Source of the DNA: Candidatus Acidulodesulfobacterium acidiphilum
GTDB taxonomy: Bacteria > SZUA-79 > Acidulodesulfobacterales > Acidulodesulfobacteraceae
DNA length: 5,369 nucleotides
Direction of reading: 5' to 3'
Assembly (NCBI GenBank): GCA_008534395.1
Contig: SHMQ01000060.1
Location: forward strand, 1 to 5,369
In this document: in pieces, positions 1 through 5,248 of the stretch
Position numbering within the stretch: the first letter of the stretch is position 1
How the letters are laid out: each line of letters opens with the position of its first letter
Notes under the pieces: model-generated
The model's database searches: none
Seen by the model: the letters and a program-made list of their open reading frames with translations, nothing else
What the model was told of the DNA's origin: nothing
Program-made: the position numbers and the translations under genes

Positions 1-183
1 TTTTTTTGACTTGCTTCCGCTGCCTTTTTTTGCCTTTTTTGAAGTTTTTTTAGTCATAGCAGAATGCTTCATAAAATGGCCGCCCTGAAAAGCATATGCG
101 CTTGAGCCTGAAGCCGCGCCTATTCCAAAAGCAAATATCACAGCTAACACGGCGGTAAATATAATATTGTTAATTTTTTTCAC
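1..183 (-). CDS. Small secreted lysine-rich protein, 3' end beyond the window
   Basis: This open frame starts with GTG at 183 and runs 61 codons without a stop to the window edge, so the C-terminus is missing. The start is supported by a GGGGGTGA Shine-Dalgarno about 6 bases upstream. The N-terminus is a clear signal peptide: MKKINN, a hydrophobic core at about residues 7-23, then SSAYA with likely cleavage after Ala31. The mature part begins FQGGHF, contains Met and His (residues 36-43), and then becomes rich in Lys, Ser and Gly (residues 45-61, many KK pairs). I do not recognise a family. It follows the secreted rhodanese gene after 71 bases in the same direction and may share its transcript. 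The Lys-rich tail could be a low-complexity binding segment or the start of a longer protein. The reading frame and export signal are well supported; function is unknown. Confidence 0.65.
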   Translation of the reverse strand, partial: MKKINNIIFTAVLAVIFAFGIGAASGSSAYAFQGGHFMKHSAMTKKTSKKAKKGSGSKSKK

Positions 184-847: not shown

Positions 848-1018
848 TCACCAGCAAAATATTTTATCGTATTTAAATACGTCCGCTATAAAACCGTCAT
901 AGTTTATTCCCGGTTCGTAAAGTCTGATAATTTTCGTATCGTAAGATTTGGAATGCAATTCCATAATTTCAGTTTCCGTTTTTGACGGTTCTCTTTTTAA
1001 AACATGAAGTATTTTCAT
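848..1018 (-). CDS. 56-residue DsrH/TusB-like mini-protein
   Basis: This short ORF runs from ATG at 1018 to TGA at 848-850, with GGAG 8 bases upstream of the start. It begins MKILHVLKREP and ends INYDGFIADVFKYDKIFCW. From memory, E. coli TusB begins MLHTLHRSP and ends IDYTDFVRLTVKHPSQMAW. The two 19-residue ends align without gaps and share I, Y, F, K and the terminal W, and both starts have LHxL..xP. TusB is about 95 residues, so roughly 40 central residues are absent here. TusB/DsrH is the third subunit of the TusBCD/DsrEFH sulfur-relay complex in the cytoplasm. This gene is third in a DsrE-, DsrF-, DsrH-like series, 29 bases after its partner, which supports the call. The only cysteine is Cys55. 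It could instead be an unrelated small conserved protein, but the coding status is good. Confidence 0.72.
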   Translation of the reverse strand: MKILHVLKREPSKTETEIMELHSKSYDTKIIRLYEPGINYDGFIADVFKYDKIFCW

Positions 1019-1047
1019 ATTTTATTCTCCGCAATAAATAATTAATA

Positions 1048-1320
1048 TTAATATGGTATAACTATATCGTATTCGAGCATTTTATCCGCCAGTTCTTCAT
1101 TAGAAATATATTCGAATTGATTATCCCTGCAATTTGTTAAAACTGGAAGTTCAAGCATATTTAGAACCATATCGAGATGCTTGTTTATAACCTTATTATC
1201 TTCAAGTTTTCTATCAAGAACGTATACTTCTACTTTATCGTCAAGGAGCGTTAACCCTCCCGACATTCTAAGCGCTTCGGCTTGTCTGTCGCGCGTAAAT
1301 ACAGCAATCTTTTTTGTCAT
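1048..1320 (-). CDS. DsrF/TusC-like small sulfur-relay protein
   Basis: This 90-residue cytoplasmic protein starts KKIAVFTRDRQAEALRMSGGLTLL in short blocks that fit the first strand and helix of the DsrE/DsrF fold, and ends LEYDIVIPY. From memory, E. coli TusC starts MKRIAFVFS and ends ANYDVILRF, so both ends and the position of the terminal aromatic residue agree. TusC is about 119 residues; this version is about 30 shorter. The single cysteine is Cys64 (TNCRDN). TusC/DsrF is usually a structural partner in the TusBCD/DsrEFH heterohexamer. The start has GGGGG 4 bases upstream, and the gene lies only 12 bases after the DsrE-like gene, so translation is probably coupled. Membership in the DsrE/DsrF superfamily is likely; assignment to the TusC branch rests on the ends and on gene order. 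Confidence 0.8.
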   Translation of the reverse strand: MTKKIAVFTRDRQAEALRMSGGLTLLDDKVEVYVLDRKLEDNKVINKHLDMVLNMLELPVLTNCRDNQFEYISNEELADKMLEYDIVIPY

Positions 1321-1332
1321 TTTTCCCCCATT

Positions 1333-1638
1333 TTAAAAAACCAGAAACCTGTCTTCGCTTGTCAATGAGTTTATTATACTTGCGTTTTCGTACTGGGAAG
1401 CATACAGGAAACCTTCTATCTTTTCATGTATGCTTCTTATGCTGCATGAATATTCGCAAAGCGAGACATCCGAACCGGCTTCTTTTAATTTTCCGACGAA
1501 ACCCGAATCGTTTAATAAATTGACTCCGTCGTCCATTATAAAACATTTCAATTCATATCCTGATTTTTTAGCGCTGTTTATGATTTTTTCTAAGTAATCT
1601 TTATATTTATCCGTCGTTATTAAAAGAGCAAGTTTCAT
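1333..1638 (-). CDS. DsrE/TusD-like sulfurtransferase subunit
   Basis: This 101-residue protein matches the DsrE/TusD layout: MKLALLITTDKY at the first strand, a helix at about 12-26, GYELKCFIMDDGV (27-39), then a cysteine motif SLCEYSC with Cys61 and Cys65, and the end SLTSEDRFLVF. In E. coli TusD, recalled from memory, the active Cys78 sits in ICVAAALRR and the protein ends SLTCDRVVQF. Cys61 aligns with Cys78, and Arg68 matches an Arg seven residues after it. Cys61 is therefore the probable persulfide-carrying residue that would accept sulfur from TusA. TusD is about 128 residues, so this is a shortened form. The start has GAGG 8 bases upstream. It is the first of three linked Dsr-like genes and follows the small membrane-protein gene after 71 bases. 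Confidence 0.85.
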   Translation of the reverse strand: MKLALLITTDKYKDYLEKIINSAKKSGYELKCFIMDDGVNLLNDSGFVGKLKEAGSDVSLCEYSCSIRSIHEKIEGFLYASQYENASIINSLTSEDRFLVF

Positions 1639-1709: not shown

Positions 1710-2006
1710 TTAATAATGAGGAGATACCCCGCTTTCCGTATCCTTAACCTCTTGCTGTCCGGATTTCAGCACATATTCCCTTATTAAAAGAAGAATTGCG
1801 CCTATAATCATGATTACCCCCCACAAGATAAAACTCTCTTTTATTCCTGCTATAGCTTCATTGGATAATTTACCTATAACCTTATCTTTATTTAAATAAG
1901 ATAAGAAAAATGAGGCATATATAGTAAATAATCCGTATAAAGCCAATAATGTTATTCCGCACCAGTTATGATTTTTTCTTTTTTTCATATTGTTAGCCGC
2001 AGCCAT
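1710..2006 (-). CDS. Small two-helix membrane protein of unknown function
   Basis: This 98-residue protein has a basic N-terminus (KKRK at 8-11), a first transmembrane helix at about 16-38, a short polar loop (39-57) and a second helix at about 59-75, followed by a charged tail. The positive N-terminus and the arginine after helix 2 suggest that both ends face the cytoplasm and the loop lies outside. Met1 is favoured over Met7 because AGGGAG lies 7 bases upstream of Met1 and nothing similar precedes Met7. It sits between the YeeE/YedE transporter (44 bases before it) and the DsrE-like gene, so it may be an accessory subunit of the transporter or a link between it and the relay proteins. That is inferred from position only; I recognise no domain. 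Confidence 0.8.
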   Translation of the reverse strand: MAAANNMKKRKNHNWCGITLLALYGLFTIYASFFLSYLNKDKVIGKLSNEAIAGIKESFILWGVIMIIGAILLLIREYVLKSGQQEVKDTESGVSPHY

Positions 2007-2050: not shown

Positions 2051-3229
2051 TTACCATATCGCCTGTTGAAATTTAAGAGCAAGATACATTCCTAAAACAA
2101 GGGTCGGCAAAAATAACATTCCCGCCCATGAAAACATTAAAAATCCAGACCATAAAGTACCTATATTGCATCCTAAAGCTATTCTTGCGCCTACGCCTGT
2201 AAAAATACCGCCGATAAAATTTTGAAGAAACATTATTTTTCTTTTCGGCACTCTCCATTTGAATTCACCGCCTAAAATAGCCGTAGTGGTGGCGCCGGCA
2301 AATGTGGTTATAACAAGCAATGTCATCGGAATTGCAACCGGCACTATCTGAAACCAGTTTGACGATATTTTGGGCAAAAACGATGCTTTATAATGCCCTA
2401 CAGCAGTATATAGATTTATGAAAGGTGCTAAAATGTAAGTATCAAAACTGCCGTAAGGAGTTGTTACGCCCATATAAGCAACTTTATGGACGGTAAAATA
2501 TGACGTTATAAAAACTATAACTGCAACCACGGCAAATAATATCCCGCCCAACCTCGGAGAATAAGCCTCTTTAAATTTCAACATATCCCACGTTATTATC
2601 GGCTCCTTATAGTTTACGCCGCGTTCTTTACTGATTTTGCCAAATCTCCTTTTGGTCAAATATAATCCCAAAATGAGAAATGTACCGCCGAAAATTAGAG
2701 CCACTACAAACGGTCCCCATACTGCGTTTCCAAACCATTCATGAGGAATATAGTCGGCAAGTCCCGGTTTTAAGCCAAGCCACGGTATAGTGTGTAAAAT
2801 CCAGTATAGAAAATTAGTCAGCGGGAATATTATGAATGCAAAGAATATTGTTCCTACCAGTATTCCGAATAATTGCATCCAGTTTTGCGTAAATCCCGAG
2901 CCTGCCCTGAATATTAATCCGCTCATGCATGCTCCGCATAGTCCTATGCCGAAACCAAACAAAAGCGAGCCGACTAAATCATACCATCCCGAAGGAAATA
3001 CGCCTTGGACTGCAGATTGTATCGGAACTATTCCTAACGATTCTATAATGCCGAAAGCAAGAATAGAAATTCCAAAAGCCAGCAATATACCTTCTAAGAT
3101 TTTTGTATCTCTTGCCATAAACATATTATTTGTTGCAAGCACGAAACACATTCTTCCCCTTTCGAGCGCAGCCCCGAAAATTAAGCCTGCGATACCTATT
3201 ATAGCGTATTCAAGAAAATAAGGATTCAT
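2051..3229 (-). CDS. YeeE/YedE family sulfur-compound transporter
   Basis: This 392-residue polytopic membrane protein has about nine hydrophobic helices, at roughly 8-30, 45-66, 83-107, 118-146, 170-192, 228-246, 293-318, 333-354 and 361-388. It carries the hallmark Gly/Cys motifs of the family: ERGRMCFV (Cys28), GLCGACMSG (Cys101, with an extra Cys98) and ALGCNIG (Cys354). In characterised YeeE (TsuA) proteins three such cysteines line the path that passes thiosulfate into the cell, working with the TusA-like partner YeeD (TsuB). YedE/FdhT relatives, which also pair with TusA-like proteins, are linked to selenium metabolism. The length is nearer to YedE (about 400) than to YeeE (about 350), so the substrate is open: thiosulfate, another sulfane-sulfur species or a selenium compound. 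TusA lies directly upstream. The start is preceded by GGGGGG at 10 bases. Confidence 0.93.
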   Translation of the reverse strand: MNPYFLEYAIIGIAGLIFGAALERGRMCFVLATNNMFMARDTKILEGILLAFGISILAFGIIESLGIVPIQSAVQGVFPSGWYDLVGSLLFGFGIGLCGACMSGLIFRAGSGFTQNWMQLFGILVGTIFFAFIIFPLTNFLYWILHTIPWLGLKPGLADYIPHEWFGNAVWGPFVVALIFGGTFLILGLYLTKRRFGKISKERGVNYKEPIITWDMLKFKEAYSPRLGGILFAVVAVIVFITSYFTVHKVAYMGVTTPYGSFDTYILAPFINLYTAVGHYKASFLPKISSNWFQIVPVAIPMTLLVITTFAGATTTAILGGEFKWRVPKRKIMFLQNFIGGIFTGVGARIALGCNIGTLWSGFLMFSWAGMLFLPTLVLGMYLALKFQQAIW

Positions 3230-3278: not shown

Positions 3279-3539
3279 TTATGATGTTTTTTTAATTTTA
3301 ATGGTAAATTCACCAGGAGCAGTCTTTGTTACGCAGTAAGGATAATTTAACTTATTAAGCATGGACGGGAACGAATTCTCTACCGCCGCCGCATGGTCGG
3401 TATAAACCTCCAGCACCTGCCCCACTTTCATTTTGTTGAGCTTTTTATGAGCCATAGCTTCCGGAATAGGACATGTTTCGCCTAAAACGTCTAATGTTTC
3501 ATCCGGTTTTACGTTTTCTAAACTTTTTTCTTCCGCCAT
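3279..3539 (-). CDS. TusA/YeeD-family sulfur carrier protein
   Basis: This 86-residue cytoplasmic protein has the TusA signature LDVLGETCPIPEAM at 16-29, with Cys23 in the CPxP motif as the persulfide-bearing residue. A second cysteine (Cys69) lies near the C-terminal strands. Length and layout are normal for the family, with a short charged extension (1-14). TusA proteins accept sulfane sulfur from a desulfurase, rhodanese or transporter and pass it to DsrE/TusD-type partners; YeeD-type members work at the inner mouth of YeeE. Here both kinds of partner are in the same gene series: the YeeE/YedE gene is 49 bases downstream and the DsrE-like genes follow. A strong AGGAGGG lies 5 bases before the ATG. 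Family is certain; whether it is closer to TusA, YeeD (TsuB) or FdhU cannot be told by eye. Confidence 0.95.
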   Translation of the reverse strand: MAEEKSLENVKPDETLDVLGETCPIPEAMAHKKLNKMKVGQVLEVYTDHAAAVENSFPSMLNKLNYPYCVTKTAPGEFTIKIKKTS

Positions 3540-3578: not shown

Positions 3579-4562
3579 TTAAAAGCTTTCCTGCCAAATA
3601 GGTCCTTTATACGGGAAAAACTCTTTTCCTTTAGTTGCGCCGCTAATTTTGGTTACCGTTCCATCCCCGCTGTTTGCCGTCCAGACATCGCCATTATCGT
3701 CTATTAATATAAAATTAGGATTTTTCCCTGTCTTATATGTATTTAAAACCCTGCCCGAACGGCTTAACTTCACGACTTTATCGGCATATATACAGGCGAC
3801 GAACATGTTTCCGGTAGTGCTTAGCGCAATTCCGTAAGGCGCTCCTTTTATGTTAATTTTTTCTAAAATTTTACCGTTTTTATTAAATTTTAAAACGCTG
3901 TCGCTTAACCCGTTCGTAACATATATATTTCCTGCAGGACCTATAGCAATGCCTTCCGGTTTTCTTTGAGCATCAAATACTTTTATTATCTTTCCGCTTT
4001 TGTTTAATACGGTAACGGTGCCTTTGTTTGTGAAGTTCGTAACATATATTAAACCGTTATCGTTTAAAACTATACCGTATGGAGCTATCCCTGCATAAAA
4101 AATCTTTAAAACCGTAAGCGACGGGCTTAATTTCGTAACTGTCTTTGAATGTATGGATGTTACATAAATATTTCCATCGGGTCCAACGGCGATTCCTGCC
4201 GGAATAATTCCAACTTTTACTTTTTTAAGAATTTGACCTTTATTATTAAGCTTTACTACATTTCCTATGCCTGTCGATACATAAACATAGCCGGTTTTGC
4301 TGATAACAATTCCCGAAGGCGCCCAATCGGTATTAATATTTTTAATTAATTTACCGTTTTGGTTAAGTTCAATCACATTATTAAAACCGCTTATAGCGGC
4401 ATAAACATTATCTTTTTTGCCGACCGCAAGTCCATAAGGGGTAGTTCCTACCTTAAAATTCGACTCTGTCGCCGCATTTGCGCTATTATTAATATTTCCT
4501 GAATCGATTAAAAAAATAAACGATAAAAGTAAAAATAATGAAAATTGAAGAAGTTTTTTCAT
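3579..4562 (-). CDS. Secreted seven-repeat NHL/Vgb-like beta-propeller protein
   Basis: With the chosen ATG at 4562 the protein has 327 residues. It has a signal peptide (MKKLLQF, hydrophobic 7-19, cleavage near ANA, residues 28-30) and seven imperfect repeats of about 40 residues filling the rest. Each repeat follows the pattern P-x-G-I-A-hydrophobic, then DGNIYVT, then a strand of the VxKLNKxGKIL type. This is the pattern of NHL/virginiamycin B lyase-like propellers; seven repeats would close one seven-bladed ring. The protein ends with a short tail, YKGPIWQESF. The frame is open up to a TTG at 4625 and has another ATG at 4595. I prefer 4562 because it gives a compact signal peptide and a promoter-like pair covers the longer starts, but no clear ribosome site precedes any of them. 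A binding or scaffold role outside the membrane is likely; no catalytic residues can be assigned. It lies 39 bases before tusA in the same direction. Confidence 0.85.
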   Translation of the reverse strand: MKKLLQFSLFLLLSFIFLIDSGNINNSANAATESNFKVGTTPYGLAVGKKDNVYAAISGFNNVIELNQNGKLIKNINTDWAPSGIVISKTGYVYVSTGIGNVVKLNNKGQILKKVKVGIIPAGIAVGPDGNIYVTSIHSKTVTKLSPSLTVLKIFYAGIAPYGIVLNDNGLIYVTNFTNKGTVTVLNKSGKIIKVFDAQRKPEGIAIGPAGNIYVTNGLSDSVLKFNKNGKILEKINIKGAPYGIALSTTGNMFVACIYADKVVKLSRSGRVLNTYKTGKNPNFILIDDNGDVWTANSGDGTVTKISGATKGKEFFPYKGPIWQESF

Positions 4563-4596
4563 CAAGTTATTTAAATAATTTTTAACGTATTCCATA

Positions 4597-4660: not shown

Positions 4661-5248
4661 TTAATGCTTATTTTTAAAAATAGATTTAGAAATACCGTCA
4701 AACAACGGATCTGTATATCCAATTAAATCCTTTTGTATTATACTTTCCATTTTTAACTGAATTATCCTAATAACAGGCCCCATTATCAAAGACGATGCTA
4801 TTAATATATCCATATCCCTAAAAACACCCTCTTCAATTTTAGCTTTTATAAATTTTTTGATGTATTCAAAGGGCTTGGCTGAACATATCGGCAAAGCTTC
4901 GGGCAAAAAATCTTTATGTTTAGTGTAAAGCACATATTTCATAAGATGCGGCTCTTCATCCGTTAATTTAAATAACGTAAATATAATAGATTTTAACGCC
5001 TCTCGATCGTTGGGTGATTTTTCTACAGCCGATACTATTTTGTTTAAAAGAATCTCGATTGCGGTATCGTATAAAAACTGTGCAATCTTTTTTTTTGAAG
5101 AGAAATGATAATATATTGCGCCTGAGCTTAATCCTGTTCCTTTAGAAATATTTCTTATTCCGACATTGCTATAACCGTTTTCGGCAAAGCTTTCCATACA
5201 GTAATCAAATATCTTTTTTTTTGTTAATTCGGATACTTCTTTGCTCAT
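4661..5248 (-). CDS. TetR/AcrR family transcriptional regulator
   Basis: This 195-residue protein has a classic TetR N-terminal DNA-binding domain: helix 1 at about 8-24 (IFDYCMESFAENGY), then the helix-turn-helix IRNISKGTGLSSGAIYYHF at 31-49, followed by SSKKKI. The remainder (about 55-190) is the helical ligand-binding and dimerisation region, with no recognisable ligand signature; two cysteines (Cys17 and one near residue 122) are present. TetR proteins usually repress their own or adjacent genes until a small ligand binds. The gene is first in the minus-strand series, about 100 bases before the propeller start, and its own leader contains a palindrome well placed for autorepression. No good Shine-Dalgarno precedes the ATG, but the start fits the domain boundary. 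Control of the downstream sulfur operon is inferred from position. Confidence 0.93.
   Translation of the reverse strand: MSKEVSELTKKKIFDYCMESFAENGYSNVGIRNISKGTGLSSGAIYYHFSSKKKIAQFLYDTAIEILLNKIVSAVEKSPNDREALKSIIFTLFKLTDEEPHLMKYVLYTKHKDFLPEALPICSAKPFEYIKKFIKAKIEEGVFRDMDILIASSLIMGPVIRIIQLKMESIIQKDLIGYTDPLFDGISKSIFKNKH

Follow-up and report, generated by a model that had tools for sequence, protein, structure and literature searches.

A miniature DsrEFH-like gene trio in a YTD cluster of Candidatus Acidulodesulfobacterium acidiphilum

The YTD cluster and the layout of the window

The gene arrangement studied here is that of the YTD cluster known from sulfur disproportionators, three orphan proteins of which were recognised in 2026 as DsrEFH-like (PMC13047784, PMC13293266). 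The name DsrEFH type II was given in the same year by Plum-Jensen et al. for the cable bacteria Electronema aureum (PMC13293266), from which the complex was purified; its predicted trimer mass is 33 kDa (PMC13293266). In this full-size form DsrE is the only subunit that TusA persulfidates, the site being Cys67, and the sulfur then moves from the complex to DsrC (PMC13293266). YTD clusters show raised levels when thiosulfate is disproportionated, and they have been put forward as indicators either of disproportionation or of sulfur oxidation carried out by sulfate reducers (PMC12998232, PMC13293266). The type II study counts the complex in 985 genomes, its criterion being a score above 80 bits for all three of its HMMs (PMC13293266). 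Cable bacteria genomics of 2026 describes type II as a non-orthologous structural analogue of DsrEFH (PMC13047784), and for the type II and the canonical complex a common ancestry has been judged difficult to derive from sequence data (PMC13293266).

The window, i.e. the whole stretch of 5,369 nucleotides that was analysed, equals contig C60 of a source genome of 2.09 Mb in 70 contigs, and its close relatives are metagenome-assembled genomes. All genes lie on the minus strand in the order TetR, NHL, tusA, yeeE/yedE, 98-aa membrane protein, P1, P2, P3, rhodanese and small exported protein. A TetR-family regulator (4661..5248), possibly a candidate for regulating the operon, and an exported NHL/beta-propeller protein (3579..4565) stand upstream; both were assigned by family search and are conserved in L031. 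The tusA gene (3279..3539; Pfam TusA 64 bits) encodes a protein with a CPIP motif, the probable sulfur donor to P1, and is followed by a sulfur-compound transporter of the yeeE/yedE family (2051..3229; Pfam Sulf_transp 164 bits). Between yeeE and P1 a conserved membrane protein of 98 aa, probably with two helices, is encoded (1710..2006); Pfam and NCBIfam family searches gave nothing above cut-off for it, and it occupies the identical place in L013, L016, L018, L019 and L031, as in every window-type locus viewed. The trio itself consists of P1, the DsrE-like catalytic subunit of 101 aa (1333..1638; Pfam DsrE near cut-off, profiles, invariant Cys61), P2, a miniature DsrF-like subunit of 90 aa (1048..1320; profiles, AlphaFold model, VIA-align), and P3, a miniature DsrH-like subunit of 56 aa (848..1018; profiles, alignment, AlphaFold model). 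An exported rhodanese-domain protein with a hydrophobic N-terminus is encoded 3' of P3 (255..779; Pfam Rhodanese 52.6 bits). The gene set of tusA, yeeE, small membrane protein, E, F, H and rhodanese is a YTD cluster.

The last gene of the window, for a small exported lysine-rich protein (1..183), is truncated by the contig edge; full-length relatives are found in L031, L013, L019 and L032 and end in GAGCL. Small exported proteins terminating in a cysteine motif adjoin trios more widely, with GAGCL in the window's family and IEGC in other genomes (window 1-183; L031:5897-6112; L093:4017-4283; L238, L241, L248, L253). Beside trios 11 of 24 small exported ORFs were Cys-terminal, against none of eight at other loci, several of the 11 being mutual orthologues and therefore not independent counts. 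These proteins are possible periplasmic sulfur carriers.

A sequence-only reading of this DNA had described three linked genes of 101, 90 and 56 residues as a miniature DsrEFH/TusDCB complex. The reading frames, their positions and their terminal residues are as described there, and the D-C-B (E-F-H) order is seen both in the window and in relatives. P1, P2 and P3 are genuine genes, because a purine-rich ribosome-binding-like sequence precedes the ATG of each of them and because dN is far below dS in comparison to relatives for all three (P3 against L013: dN 0.12, dS 1.02). Within the window's family the E-F-H order and near-fixed lengths are preserved.

Homology, predicted folds and lost segments of the subunits

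As single sequences the three proteins are nearly silent in library searches. P1 scored 22.1 bits against Pfam DsrE, just below the cut-off of 22.7, and had one weak NCBIfam match far below cut-off, while P2 and P3 had zero matches in Pfam and NCBIfam; all three thus stay beneath the Pfam DsrE/DsrH gathering cut-offs which serve as the type I criterion. Against PDB sequences neither single-sequence searches (P1, P2) nor alignment searches (P1, P2, P3) gave anything relevant. Alignments of relatives, which we gathered from whole genomes, were compared profile against profile. Miniature profiles matched the full-size type II-like profiles of the same subunit with E-values of 9.7e-29 (E), 7.5e-16 (F) and 4.9e-15 (H), the H match covering all 55 columns. 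Against the canonical type I profiles the same-subunit values were 1.6e-14 (DsrE), 6.6e-5 (DsrF) and 6.4e-5 (DsrH), of which the latter two (7e-5 and 6e-5) are modest; full-size against canonical profiles gave 3.3e-22, 7.1e-23 and 1.4e-16 for E, F and H. These E-values come from one-against-one comparisons and are to be judged relative to the reversed-alignment controls, which gave 0.01 or worse throughout. Because every 3x3 profile matrix is diagonal (off-diagonal values of miniature against full-size being 6e-5 or weaker) and the reversed controls fail, the likeness goes beyond chance. On the evidence of the profiles, P1, P2 and P3 are homologues of DsrE, DsrF and DsrH, subunit for subunit. 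An RsmI-like protein (L068) matched by the P3 profile was dismissed as chance.

The small DsrEFH/TusDCB-type character proposed in the sequence-only reading is borne out in that each protein best matches its own subunit, and for the 90- and 56-residue proteins the DsrF and DsrH matches emerge only when profile is compared with profile. The kinship to TusBCD/DsrEFH holds at the level of the superfamily, whereas the closest relatives are, by profiles, the YTD-cluster DsrEFH type II proteins. The relation of type II to canonical DsrEFH is disputed, and here the sequence profiles of the miniature and full-size forms connect every subunit with its canonical equivalent.

AlphaFold models were considered for P2 and P3, and membership of P1 in the DsrE/DsrF superfamily was judged from its profile. 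The P2 model has a mean pLDDT of 94.5. Its top matches in VIA-align are DsrE/F structures (DsrE/F-like 3mc3, Z 11.4; YchN, 10.4; TusD, 9.7; DsrF 2hy5_B, 9.1) and these alignments extend over 87-90 residues, so that the model shows a clear DsrE/F fold. P3 is modelled with a mean pLDDT of 96.3 as beta-alpha-beta-alpha-beta, i.e. three strands and two helices. It aligns with DsrH 2hy5_C at Z 4.4 (53 of 56 residues, 2.3 A), a score equalled by unrelated folds. With its small size P3 cannot give a distinctive match by fold, and we regard it as DsrH-like from its profiles, position and C-terminal residues. Foldseek returned no match at E 0.001 for either model, the best match of P2 being a DsrE-fold protein; VIA-align placed DsrE/F structures at the top for P2 only.

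Cys61 of P1 (codon 1456-1458, minus strand), assigned to the catalytic position already from the sequence, falls in the catalytic-cysteine column of all 66 aligned rows (45/45 miniature, 14/14 full-size and 7/7 canonical). Cys65 (codon 1444-1446, minus strand) is rarely kept outside the window's own family. The sole cysteine of P3 is Cys55. In alignments with the full-size subunits, miniature H lacks one central block of about 28-33 residues, which extends from just past the D/E of DGVY almost to the DY of the last helix and contains the ARG motif. Miniature F lacks three blocks, including the stretches around DGVY and ESLEERG. The ESLEERG stretch of full-size F corresponds, by its position relative to the shared RG, to the catalytic-cysteine segment of E. 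Because a missing stretch of F in this way matches the Cys-bearing segment of E, we infer that F and H shed vestigial active-site regions, E remaining almost full size with about 100 residues. That all three proteins are shorter than their counterparts, as first supposed, applies to F (90 vs about 115 residues) and H (56 vs about 85) but hardly to E (101 vs about 101-117), full-size type II being the reference. The window trio has a mass of 28.7 kDa.

Distribution and origin of the miniature form

The miniature trio recurs in other genomes. Among the loci opened, 45 hold trios or E-H sets with an H of 53-62 residues and 14 have an H of 72-95 residues; as the E score served to pick the loci and miniature forms were part of the query, these frequencies are not free of bias, H length being no selection criterion. 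The large phylum containing G289, by our guess Nitrospirota, is rich in the miniature form, and 239 of its 295 genomes have an E-type match, not all of them miniature. Across many genera miniature loci are often near yeeE, tusA or a rhodanese gene, yeeE being near most of them, and many full-size loci adjoin moeB and cysteine synthase genes. The full-size E-F-H trios L100, L138, L140-L142 and L146 adjoin moeB/thiF and mostly also tusA and cysteine synthase genes, which suggests a biosynthetic sulfur relay. One genome (G421) carries both forms, the miniature at L257 and full-size type II at L258.

In a DsrE tree of 74 rows every miniature locus falls into one group (SH-aLRT 94), with full-size and type I sequences outside, so that the size class is explained by one change; the tree is based on 100 columns and has many weak forks. 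With the miniature loci in a single group that lies within the full-size forms, reduction is the more economical interpretation. From this tree the miniature form looks derived once and not ancestral, and the earlier suggestion of a possibly ancestral complex is accordingly given up.

We built stand-in HMMs from the 14 full-size trios in place of the three published type II HMMs. With these the window proteins score 53.9 (P1), 24.0 (P2) and 24.1 bits (P3), and miniature F and H in general reach at most 32 and 40 bits, respectively. These low scores suggest that miniature trios, which standard searches probably overlook, would be missed at the published cut-off of 80 bits and may have escaped the published survey.

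Several divergent or incomplete arrangements were also seen. In about a dozen genomes of the family (L037:5111-5579; L048-L056) amt, for an ammonium transporter, and an aldolase-like gene directly flank a paralogous miniature F-H pair of 92 and 62 aa, which has no adjoining E gene. A lone P1 paralogue of 103-112 aa with a CEHSC or CEYSC motif (L036:4148-4486; L020-L025, L027) mostly adjoins flagellar rod and PilZ-like genes, and may be the E that partners this unlinked F-H pair. L033 and L034, from the window's family, have a divergent cluster of yeeE-type genes, two tusA-type genes, E, F and an exported rhodanese; in L033 there is in addition a possible H of 66 residues, too divergent for the H profile used.

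Proposed function and comparison with known systems

The source genome has a dsr operon (C16) with a DsrL-like gene, dsrC, dsrM, dsrK, dsrEFH, sat, aprBA and qmoA, the names being read from translations and DsrE, DsrH and DsrC being confirmed by Pfam. This operon resembles the one described for Candidatus Acidulodesulfobacterales from acid mine drainage (PMC6776010). Its dsrEFH is of type I, full-length and near dsrC, and the idea of a genome without canonical dsrEFH was therefore rejected. The sequence-only reading had named full-length dsrEFH elsewhere in the genome, together with a grouping of the trio in unrelated families, as what would speak against it; the former is present, while the three proteins do not group in unrelated families. 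The sole DsrC found in the genome (L145, G000:C16:6749-7072) ends QLAKISGLPKPTGCV, with alanine at the position, 11 residues ahead of the penultimate one, where a cysteine would be expected. One C-terminal cysteine is missing in every DsrC found in the family with a complete C-terminus (L157-L171, L173, L174), whereas the DsrC of a comparison genome (L172) has both. A single-cysteine DsrC is unexpected for a lineage described as sulfate-reducing.

The three genes probably encode a reduced DsrEFH heterotrimer, to be grouped with DsrEFH type II of the YTD clusters. That the subunits form a complex, that it transfers sulfur, and to which acceptor, is proposed by analogy to what experiments showed for full-size type II in cable bacteria (PMC13293266). 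According to this model YeeE would import a sulfur compound, TusA would take up the sulfane sulfur in the cytoplasm and pass it onto Cys61 of the E subunit, and E would hand it on, for example to DsrC as acceptor. F and H, without counterparts of the active-site loop of E, would probably act as scaffold only. By the same analogy DsrC would be the natural acceptor, but it is no more than a candidate because the DsrC of the family lacks one C-terminal cysteine and a full-length dsrEFH is nearby.

A narrower form of this explanation, in which the complex feeds sulfur disproportionation or Dsr in the oxidative direction and not assimilation or housekeeping, is a tentative one to which we give somewhat less than an even chance. 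YTD clusters are raised in thiosulfate disproportionation and proposed as markers of disproportionation or of sulfate reducers that oxidise sulfur (PMC12998232, PMC13293266), and genes of the dsr, apr, sat and qmo sets are present in the genome; however, type I dsrEFH is already part of the dsr operon, and the full-size trios beside moeB/cysteine synthase (L100, L138, L142) hint at a biosynthetic use in other lineages. We consider it unlikely that P1 is a standalone E-type sulfurtransferase which shares its operon with an unrelated two-protein module P2-P3. The P2-P3-like pair that about a dozen genomes of the family have between amt and the aldolase gene, without a linked P1, and the P1 paralogue alone at the flagellar locus would fit such a separation, but P2 and P3 profiles match DsrF and DsrH specifically, P1 occurs elsewhere in most genomes with unlinked P2 (G016, G041, G043-45, G152), and many other genera have the three genes side by side. 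Still less probable is that the trio is orthologous to TusBCD and works in the 2-thiouridine modification of tRNA known from E. coli: although order and fold are as in TusDCB and the operon includes tusA, the best profile matches are YTD/type II-like proteins, the operon has a transporter and an exported rhodanese and no tRNA thiolation genes, and the organism possesses a dissimilatory dsr-apr-sat-qmo operon. Finally, a complex of just the two subunits E and F, with P3 as a short ORF that arose by chance or has decayed, is hardly credible and already contradicted, since the mere 56 residues of P3 and its lack of library matches are outweighed by a length of 53-62 residues in 45 loci, purifying selection, a ribosome-binding site and a DsrH profile match which spans its full length.

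Within the preferred reading of a reduced type II-like heterotrimer, the miniature trios might even represent a distinct third DsrEFH form of single origin, which lost the vestigial active sites of F and H, is spread over several bacterial groups, coexists with full-size type I or II and has a different sulfur donor or acceptor; this is conceivable, although we would sooner doubt it than rely on it. If it is true, miniature trios were left out of the published 985 type II genomes. Since DsrEFH type II has been suggested to mark sulfate reducers that oxidise sulfur, the miniature form widens the range of genomes to consider. The miniature trio is also a natural minimal system for the role of F and H, because evolution deleted their counterparts of the active-site loop.

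In comparison to DsrEFH type I (Allochromatium vinosum, PDB 2hy5) the E/F fold, the subunit order and the position of DsrE Cys78 are common features, but F and H of the window are much shorter, sequence identity is very low, P3 lacks DsrH Cys20 and the trio lies outside the dsr operon. With TusBCD of E. coli (PDB 2d1p) the trio shares the superfamily, the position of TusD Cys78 and TusA as the likely donor, whereas it has no tRNA thiolation context and its TusC- and TusB-like subunits are shorter. The E-F-H trios beside moeB/thiF, cysteine synthase and tusA (L100, L138, L142) have homologous subunits and the tusA neighbour in common with the window; their F and H are full-size and their gene context is apparently biosynthetic.

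Closest is type II, with which the window shares the contiguous E-F-H order, the synteny with tusA and yeeE/yedE, a single conserved catalytic cysteine in E (the Cys67/Cys78 equivalent) and F and H proteins that sequence tools leave unannotated. Differences are found in size, as the F and H of the window, both with loops removed, have 90 and 56 aa instead of about 115 and about 83-88 aa and the trimer has 28.7 kDa instead of 33-35 kDa, while E with 101 aa is hardly shortened relative to the full-size E of about 101-117 aa; in addition the window operon contains the small membrane protein and the exported rhodanese. L258 is a textbook full-size type II locus (yeeE-tusA-E105-F115-H88, Cys67, 34.9 kDa) which reproduces the published description (33 kDa, Cys67; PMC13293266), and its subunits align with the miniature ones. 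The type II complex has been known since 2026, and what is new here is its recurrent miniature variant, in which only the catalytic subunit is kept whole.
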